Part shown: piece after piece, positions 47,201-50,200 of the stretch
Layout: every line of letters begins with the position of its first letter
Position numbering within the stretch: the first letter of the stretch is position 1
Notes under the pieces: model-generated
The model's input: the letters and a program-made list of their open reading frames with translations, nothing else
The model's database searches: none
Told to the model about the DNA's origin: nothing
Origin: Ascidia mentula
Lineage: Eukaryota > Chordata > Ascidiacea > Phlebobranchia > Ascidiidae
Direction: 5' to 3'
Length of the DNA: 64,000 nucleotides
Assembly (NCBI GenBank): GCA_947561715.1
Contig: OX387204.1
Location: forward strand, 6,825,001-6,889,000
Position numbers and translations under genes: made by a program

Positions 47201-50200
47201 TTGATTGGAATTAATAGCATTACCACTAAATTCCAACAGGGGTGCATAGAAGAATGAATCGCGATGGAATTTTTCTATGGCATCGACGGTGTGCGAGTCC
47301 AGCAGGGTTCGCAGTGCCTTCTTGGTACCGCTTTTGTCGGCAACCAGTGATTCAAGCATGGTGCGCACCATGTACAACTACACAAGATCAATTGGAAAAC
47401 ATGCGATTACATACCACCACCACATCTACCAACAAGGAAGGTTAATTACAAGTGTGCGATTGCGTGGGTTGGTTTGCGAGCAAAGATGGCGGAGGCGCCA
47501 CATCATTGGGAAAATGAAGCGGGCCCACGAGCCTATGTCCGTTGAGGAATTAATAGAGTTTCAAGCAAATTGTTGTTTCGGGTGATGCAAAATGCAGATT
47601 AATGCTCGATTCCTCCATTATGCCTTACCGGAAAAATTGAGCATTTGTGGGTAAATATAGGAGTCGGTGTGGAAGGTTTTCAGCATTTCAATCTCCTGCT
47701 CTTTCTTATAGAACTTTTTTAGCGGGCCCTTAAACATAGACTCGACCAGCACGCGAGCCATGTACATCTGTGCATATCACATTACATTGTAACAAAATGT
47801 TTTGCTAAAAAAGCTTTAACTTTTTTAAGCAGATGATTTGTACGATTAAAAAAAACATTAAGAAACACAAAAATTAACATTTAAAACAATAAGCATGTTA
47901 AACCGCCACGACACAATGCAGCTTACATTGACATGGTAACTTGGCAAGTCTAATGAACACAAGAATTTCTGCCAAAACGTCTTGCATACAATAATGTGTT
48001 AATCTGACTTGAGAGTTTGAGAATCATCGCCATTGTACAGCTGTAAGTTTTTATATGACACATACGATTTGTTTTTACCTGTGTGCTTGACGGTCCAACA
48101 TTTCTTCTCGGGACGTCAATCTTAAAACCTGTTTTGGGATCTTTTTCCCCTTTGATTGCCGGGTCATTCGGTGGCTCAAACCCTTGTATCCAATCAGCAC
48201 ACGTTTCTCGCACGGAACTGATGATGCTGCAGAATGCACGTTACGGTTAGAAGATGACTTTGGACATTGTTTGGTAAAAAGAATGAAGTTTACCTCCTGA
48301 TGTGATTTTTCTTCTTTTTAATCGACTGACGTAAGGCGTCCCTGAGTTTCAGTTGAACGAAATCCTGTAGTTTTCCATAAATGTGACAACGTATTGCCTC
48401 ATTGAACACTGTTTCCATGCGGCCCATGAGCACTTGTAGACCTTTTATCATGGCAATGACCTGGAAAAATATGGTTAAACCTCACACGAAGTAATGAATT
48501 TTTCGGCCAGAAAAAATATATGTGGAAGTTTACCAATAAAGTGGATGTAGCTTATCGGTTTACATGCAATTTTGTATTTGCAGAAATTGAGGATGACTGT
48601 GCAGCCAAAATTGATTTTTGTATAATTTGTAATGACTTCAATCTGAAATGTTCTGTTTAGAATTATCAACTTCCTATCCTAATTTGTGTCACTAACAGAA
48701 AGACTATGTTCAGTAGAGAGGTAGATTCTGGCAAAAATAAGGAACCAGTCTTAAAAGTTTACAGCTTGTAAATACAAAAATGCTTTTCTACTTAAACTAA
48801 CATTAAATCTAGTGTCGATTTAAAGTTGTACCTCAACAAGTGCATATTTTTCTTGACTTGAATAGTTGTATCTAGTTGCTCTTTCATATTCTTCAGCATC
48901 ATCAGGGCACTCAGGACTGGCATATTTATCTGTAGGGTGGACAAGTTTCCACGAGTATACCTCCATCACATGCGAACTCCACTTCGACAAAAGTTTAAGA
49001 CCTAAAAGAAGGTTACAAATACTTGTCTTTAATATAGAGGATTAACATTATTCCATGGTCAGTTAGCATCAGATTTTTCACGTTATTTCTAGTTATTTTG
49101 AAAACATCTTTTTTACATGTTAGGAAAAAGAAAGAAAGTTCGCAAAAAAATTATCAGGTCCATATACACAGCAAAAGTGCCATTTTCCAATCAATGGGGT
49201 GCCAATTTGGCCTGCATTCCCTATGCTATGTTGTGCACCCATTGTATTAATCATGATGTATCACTGGTAGCAGCCTGACCTTTTAAAGCTAAATTGTAAA
49301 GTTCTTCACTTTCACTATCCGTACGTGGTTGGTCACGCTGGGCTGTTGTCACAACCTTGAGGAACGAAATAACACAGTAAGCATTCAGTACTGACATCTT
49401 CCAAGTTGAATCATAATTTTAACTATAGGATATTTAACATTATTTCAACAAGTCAAACAATAATGGCCAATTATTGCTAAATACAAAGAAACTTACATAC
49501 AGAAATATTTGAAAGCACAATGTTTAAAACAGCGACTCGGTAAGTAGAAACATACTTGCATTGAATAGTCTTGAATCATAAAACTTTTGCAACACTAATC
49601 TATAGTGAGGAAACTTGCCTCATTGTTGCTGTGCCTTGCAAGCTCGCTTGTGTATTTTATGTGATCTTCACGAATTGAAACCAGTTGCTCAGCCAAGTTA
49701 TACTGGGGAACAATGCCTGTGCCCAACGCAGTAAATACAGCACTTGTACACGACCACCTTGATTTGTTGTCTTCGTAGTCGGTCATTTTCTGAATGTAAC
49801 TGGCTAGAGGTATTTGCATGTCACCGAACAATGGGACCACCTGCAGTTGCTGCACAAAGAAAAACATATATGTGTTTGCATAATACCAATACAACTATTT
49901 CCATGTCAACAGTAACAGTACATGGAACAACAATTCCCAAGCAAAAAAATATAAGAATAGCAATTATTAAATAAAATAGGGGAATACCTTGAAAAACTTG
50001 TCTATTTTGGTCAGGTTGATGCGCTTCTTATCATGGAGTTTGTAAATATTGACATCCCGGTTGTTAAGAAGAAAAAGTCCGAAGCCCATAACCTGGAACA
50101 TAATTTTACTTAAAAAAAAACTTGTAACCCATTTCACAATTTGTGGACTTTGTATTGGCAGTTTTGGCAGTCATGAGCATTGCAACTGGTGACATCAGAA

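Follow-up and report, generated by a model that had tools for sequence, protein, structure and literature searches.

Two adjacent copies of exon 12 in the CYFIP gene of the ascidian Ascidia mentula form a probable second pair of mutually exclusive exons

We have found that the CYFIP gene of the ascidian Ascidia mentula carries two adjacent versions of its twelfth exon, referred to here as 12a and 12b, and we judge it probable from the sequence, at roughly 0.84, that they are a tandem-duplicated, mutually exclusive pair of which a single copy enters each mRNA. A preliminary description of the same DNA had proposed this reading, and the homology of the two exons, their phases, their splice sites and tests of the reading frame argue in its favor. 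The pair had also been described as the second, independent one in this gene, and exon 3 is indeed likewise present as two copies (3a and 3b). Positions given below refer to the window, by which we mean the whole stretch of 64,000 nucleotides that was analyzed (assembly GCA_947561715.1, contig OX387204.1, positions 6,825,001 to 6,889,000 of the forward strand).

The window holds a complete gene for CYFIP (Sra1, of the WAVE complex) on the minus strand, running from 53547 to 41290. In our model, which was built by hand and checked by script, the coding region (41290..53547, minus strand) keeps an open frame, has consensus sites at its splice junctions and is divided into 25 exon slots; slots 3 and 12 are duplicated, giving 27 exons. 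Exon by exon, the Pfam family FragX_IP matches the gene 15 times, in order and from profile position 41 to position 860 of 886, and the canonical isoform (with 3b and 12b) is open over 1256 aa. The identity of the gene as CYFIP and the exon anatomy that had been assigned to it were borne out by these sequence tests. All of the introns end in AG and all but one start with GT; the only non-GT donor in the model, that of exon 7, is GC (gag/gcaagt, at 49618-49617 of the window, minus strand). When the 195.8-Mb genome was searched with FragX_IP and the best candidates were scored, 15 of the 15 matches reported lay at this locus, and it is for this reason that no second CYFIP gene was seen among the best-scoring candidates of that search. 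CYRI (PF07159), a Rac1-binding relative of the A-site region of CYFIP, gave six reported matches, all six of them at C69:9673971-9676175. We also note a stop-to-stop frame of 259 codons on the plus strand (54627-55406), upstream of the start of CYFIP, that matches no Pfam family up to E 10.

The genome bears a tunicate feature. Having cellulose synthase next to GH6 is a hallmark of tunicates, and on contig C71 matches to Cellulose_synt and Glyco_hydro_6, both over the cut-off, are neighbors on the same strand, separated by 2.3 kb; the glycosyltransferase stretch of that contig, however, fits the more general family Glyco_trans_2_3 better than Cellulose_synt (48.1 versus 29.8 bits).

Exon 12a (47629..47767, minus strand) is 139 nt long and exon 12b (47224..47377, minus strand) 154 nt. 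A GT-AG intron of 251 nt (47378..47628, minus strand) separates them in the gene model, and the pair lies between exon 11 (48079..48226, minus strand) upstream and exon 13 (46590..46746, minus strand) downstream. Exon 12b is the canonical copy, corresponding to residues 559-609 of human CYFIP1 and matching both PDB 3p8c_A (E 4e-15) and FragX_IP (E 1.3e-12), and 12a is the alternative copy. The coordinates, lengths, phases, splice dinucleotides and four junctions previously given for the two exons were all correct: each has a complete AG acceptor and GT donor, and each is entered in phase 0 and left in phase 1. Scored with leave-one-out PWMs from CYFIP, these sites are weak, the acceptors of 12b and 12a reaching 3.2 and 2.6 (20th and 23rd of 26) and the donors of 12a and 12b 3.8 and 3.4 (20th and 22nd of 26).

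The reading frame sets limits on how the copies can be combined. The four isoforms that take one copy in each duplicated slot (3a or 3b with 12a or 12b) are open from ATG to stop and are 1251 or 1256 aa long, and the arithmetic of the earlier suggestion that one locus would allow four proteins is therefore right, as a statement of potential. Using 12a and 12b together breaks the frame, as had been claimed, and translation would then stop within 12b, at codon 619; skipping both leads to a stop at codon 603, such that joint use and joint skipping alike would disrupt the protein. Since mRNAs with both copies or with neither would presumably be removed by NMD, exclusivity would be enforced at least by this frame filter.

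We present evidence that the two exons are related. Their products align from end to end, in agreement with the preliminary description, with 16 of 46 aligned residues identical and with two gaps, both in frame, that measure 2 residues (6 nt) and 3 residues (9 nt). The global BLOSUM62 score of this alignment is 69, whereas 2000 shuffles score -19 on average and 15 at most (z = 10). We ranked by their resemblance to 12b all open AG..GT segments in the window, on either strand, that are 124-169 nt long and run from phase 0 to phase 1. Of these 791, two are 12b itself with two donor variants; 12a again scored 69 and the next segment other than 12b scored 7. When the peptides of all 27 exons were compared with the six-frame translation of the window, matches with E < 0.01 outside the query exon were confined to those between 3a and 3b (8e-21) and between 12a and 12b (4e-5), and the next best match had E 0.02; among the 25 slots of CYFIP no duplicated slot was seen in this search besides 3 and 12. 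FragX_IP recognizes 12a on its own with E 6e-4 and 18.2 bits, residues 1-46 aligning with profile positions 215-266, where 12b aligns as well. This is below the gathering score of 23.3 bits, a cut-off that is hard for the 46 residues of 12a because it is meant for whole proteins. Judged by these comparisons, 12a is a true homologue of 12b, and the two are adjacent homologous exons.

The divergence between the copies is nevertheless considerable, and its extent is apparent from a phmmer search with the 12a peptide by itself, in which no solved structure was found up to E 10. Over 51 residues, 12b is identical to human CYFIP1 at 35 and 12a at 17, and 12a and 12b share 16. In the alignment of human, 12b and 12a, 14 of the 51 columns are invariant, five of them in the first 10, six in the last 15 and the remaining three being lysines in between; counted by eye, 12a sides with human rather than 12b at 3 columns and with 12b rather than human at 2. 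Because 12a is about equally far from 12b and from human, the age of the duplication is not readable from these data. A search of the genome for close copies of the 12a peptide found none, its sole match being its own locus; this search did not return 12b, so that copies as divergent as 12b would escape it and it excludes close copies only. Likewise, the 390 nt spanning 12a and the intron that follows it had their single genomic match at their own locus. Relatives sought by way of exon 13 in prokaryote and viral collections amounted to 54 and 1 pattern matches, respectively, none of which was confirmed.

The coding signal of 12a resembles that of 12b. One of the six frames of 12a is open, and in it the codon-usage log-likelihood is +15.0, compared with -15.4 and -8.8 in the two remaining frames of the sense strand and with +16.4 for 12b, which was in the training set of the codon model while 12a was not. 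Introns have a mean of -15.4 (sd 7.7) against a background trained on the same introns, and no 138-mer among 5000 sampled from introns reaches the value found for 12a. The two copies are identical at 67 of 138 nucleotides (0.49), or at 20, 31 and 16 of 46 for codon positions 1, 2 and 3. We simulated neutral drift of a copy of 12b to an identity of 0.48, and an open frame with both splice dinucleotides was kept in 0.4% of 20000 runs and the observed protein score was reached in 0.5% of 1500 runs; the simulation uses substitutions without indels and places all change on 12a, and because it loads all change onto this copy it favors the rejection of decay. At t = 0.7 (identity 0.54), 1.0% of runs retain the frame and sites and 8.5% reach the protein score, and at t = 0.5, with half of the divergence placed on 12b, the corresponding figures are 2.5% and 56%.

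These results bear on the possibility that 12a, though left by a tandem duplication, is now a relic that is out of use and decaying. Consistent with such a relic are the greater distance of 12a than of 12b from human CYFIP1 (17 versus 35 identical residues), the weak acceptor with its pyrimidine fraction of 0.45, and the fact that an intact relic does survive in about 2.5% of runs under shared divergence (t = 0.5). The preliminary description had itself named decay of 12a as one outcome that would count against a functional pair. An intact frame and splice sites, gaps that keep the frame, codon usage of the coding type and retained family residues make neutral decay unlikely as judged from the DNA, and we consider a relic quite improbable, but 12a may have gone out of use very recently. 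It is less probable still, in our estimation, that 12a is a regulatory 'poison' exon that is joined to 12b, breaks the frame and so lowers CYFIP by mRNA decay. The stop in the joined product does lie inside 12b with exons 13-25 still downstream, but homology at the protein level, matched phases and a coding bias are not required of a poison exon, and 12a has all three; it could, however, serve as a poison exon as a side use.

A different kind of alternative accepts that 12a and 12b are mutually exclusive and concerns mechanism only, namely that the choice between them is made by RNA pairing, through competing stems or a stem that hides the 12a acceptor, and not by protein regulators. Pairing of this kind is known for other mutually exclusive clusters, according to portions of PMC6071210. 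Three inverted repeats occur near the pair, of which I1 (14 nt) and I3 (12 nt) join introns outside it, and I2 (15 nt, 87%) pairs positions 47709-47723 in exon 12a with positions 47804-47818 in intron 11, so that the 12a acceptor would lie between the paired arms; the I2 stem (12 pairs) is present in the fold predicted for 47830-47700. None of this is exceptional when compared with shuffles, however. The I2 stem region showed no excess over shuffles, 20 of 200 folding as well (z -1.39), the number of inverted repeats was matched in 23 (14 nt, 1 mismatch) and 30 (15 nt, 2 mismatches) of 200, and 49 of 200 shuffles were as good as the 251-nt intron between 12a and 12b (z -0.70). We therefore regard a choice by RNA pairing as rather unlikely. 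Steric exclusion, for its part, usually needs an intron shorter than 251 nt.

In the mechanism that we propose for the pair, a trans-acting splicing factor would pick 12a or 12b by cell type. Nine patterns of splicing-factor motifs were counted, and GGTGG and GGTGGTGG were picked from them after looking: the 8166 nt of introns contain GGTGG 4 times, with 3 of these occurrences, two of them overlapping, in the two introns beside 12b, and GGTGGTGG occurs at 47421-47414 on the minus strand, 37-44 nt upstream of 12b, which is its sole occurrence on either strand of the window. We take GGTGGTGG to resemble an Esrp-type site, and it is a candidate site for a regulator of that type, offered as a lead only. 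Esrp is a single gene in Ciona, as stated in part of PMC5703972. As a separate observation, the same intron contains a donor-like GTG/gtatgt after 47415 (minus strand), 38 nt upstream of 12b, that scores 8.2 versus 3.8 for the donor of 12a and 3.4 for that of 12b.

The other pair in the gene consists of the divergent exon 3a (52290..52471, minus strand) and the canonical exon 3b (51791..51972, minus strand), each of 182 nt in the gene model and alignments. Including both copies leads to a stop at codon 201 and including neither to a stop at codon 157. Exon 3 corresponds to human residues 130-190, codon 190 being split with exon 4, and holds (with numbering by alignment) the A-site positions N176, C179, N183, S186, K189 and R190. 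Ten A-site positions have named mutants in the portions of PMC9481577 and PMC5614565 that we draw on, these six together with Y108, E434, F626 and M632. Exons 3a and 3b are identical at all six positions (N, S, N, S, R, R); within the A-site strip N176-R190, their differences fall at the human-equivalent positions 181, 182, 185 and 187. Given this identity neither copy looks Rac-dead, and re-tuning of the site is more plausible than its loss.

The segment encoded by exon 12 directly precedes the stretch with F626 and M632, a nearness to the A site that is one of sequence only: exon 13 begins in codon 610 and, in an alignment with human 611-661, codes for the equivalents of both residues. M632D, and the pair E434K/F626A, disrupted Rac1 binding according to part of PMC5614565. 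From this neighborhood we infer that 12a and 12b may act on the Rac1 A site. The two copies have their ends in common (Y-M-x-R...E-S and F-H..S..Y...F-S) and differ in the middle, where 12a is without five residues and is otherwise rebuilt; 12a has 7 K+R and 5 D+E (net +2), and 12b has 7 and 7 (net 0). Fold models of the lone peptides, which are of low confidence (mean pLDDT 59 and 71) and carry no weight in our reading, do not resemble one another, with three helices for 12b and one for 12a. A swap of 12a and 12b would thus keep the ends of the segment and rebuild its middle just before the F626/M632 stretch. That S583 of CYFIP1 and S582 of CYFIP2 might be phosphorylation sites within the exon 12 segment was considered as a feature of the pair and dropped, as no support for it was found.

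According to the history that we propose, exon 12 would have been duplicated in tandem in tunicate CYFIP and kept as two versions of a segment of 46-51 residues. Together with 3a/3b, the pair would give WAVE complexes that differ in their Rac response or in their partners. It is conceivable, and we put this forward tentatively as something we rather doubt, that the two pairs form a two-switch code, in which 3a/3b would re-tune the strip that anchors Rac1 and 12a/12b the segment leading into other A-site residues, with linked or tissue-specific choices yielding four Rac sensitivities.

Tandem-duplicated mutually exclusive exons are a well-known kind in animals, as passages of PMC5896119, PMC5703972 and PMC9741552 attest. 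Dscam, muscle Mhc, the IgIII exons of FGFR, GNAO and amphioxus preGNAI/preGNAQ likewise have adjacent homologous exons in one slot, and their isoforms vary in a single homologous segment (for Dscam and Mhc, PMC1397879 and PMC2257972, in part). The present case differs from these in that the gene is CYFIP, that there are two pairs in one gene, and that exclusivity is predicted from sequence. No report of mutually exclusive exons in CYFIP was found in the open-access literature that was searched; the location of the exon pair in CYFIP appears to be new within that literature, and a tunicate transcript model may well exist.

Within the WAVE complex, CYFIP is the subunit that receives Rac1, and one locus for it was found in this genome. 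In vertebrates, CYFIP1 and CYFIP2 likewise provide more than one version of this subunit per animal (Cyfip2 is 88% identical to Sra1 in the part of PMC9481577 cited), but as separate genes, whereas here the single locus found has duplicated exons. This raises the question of whether splicing takes the place in tunicates that the CYFIP1 and CYFIP2 pair has in vertebrates. Two exon pairs in CYFIP would also make the gene a good case for studying the coupling of distant splice choices. If our reading of 12a and 12b is true, natural variants in and next to the Rac-binding region could be used to probe how finely the Rac-WAVE switch is set.
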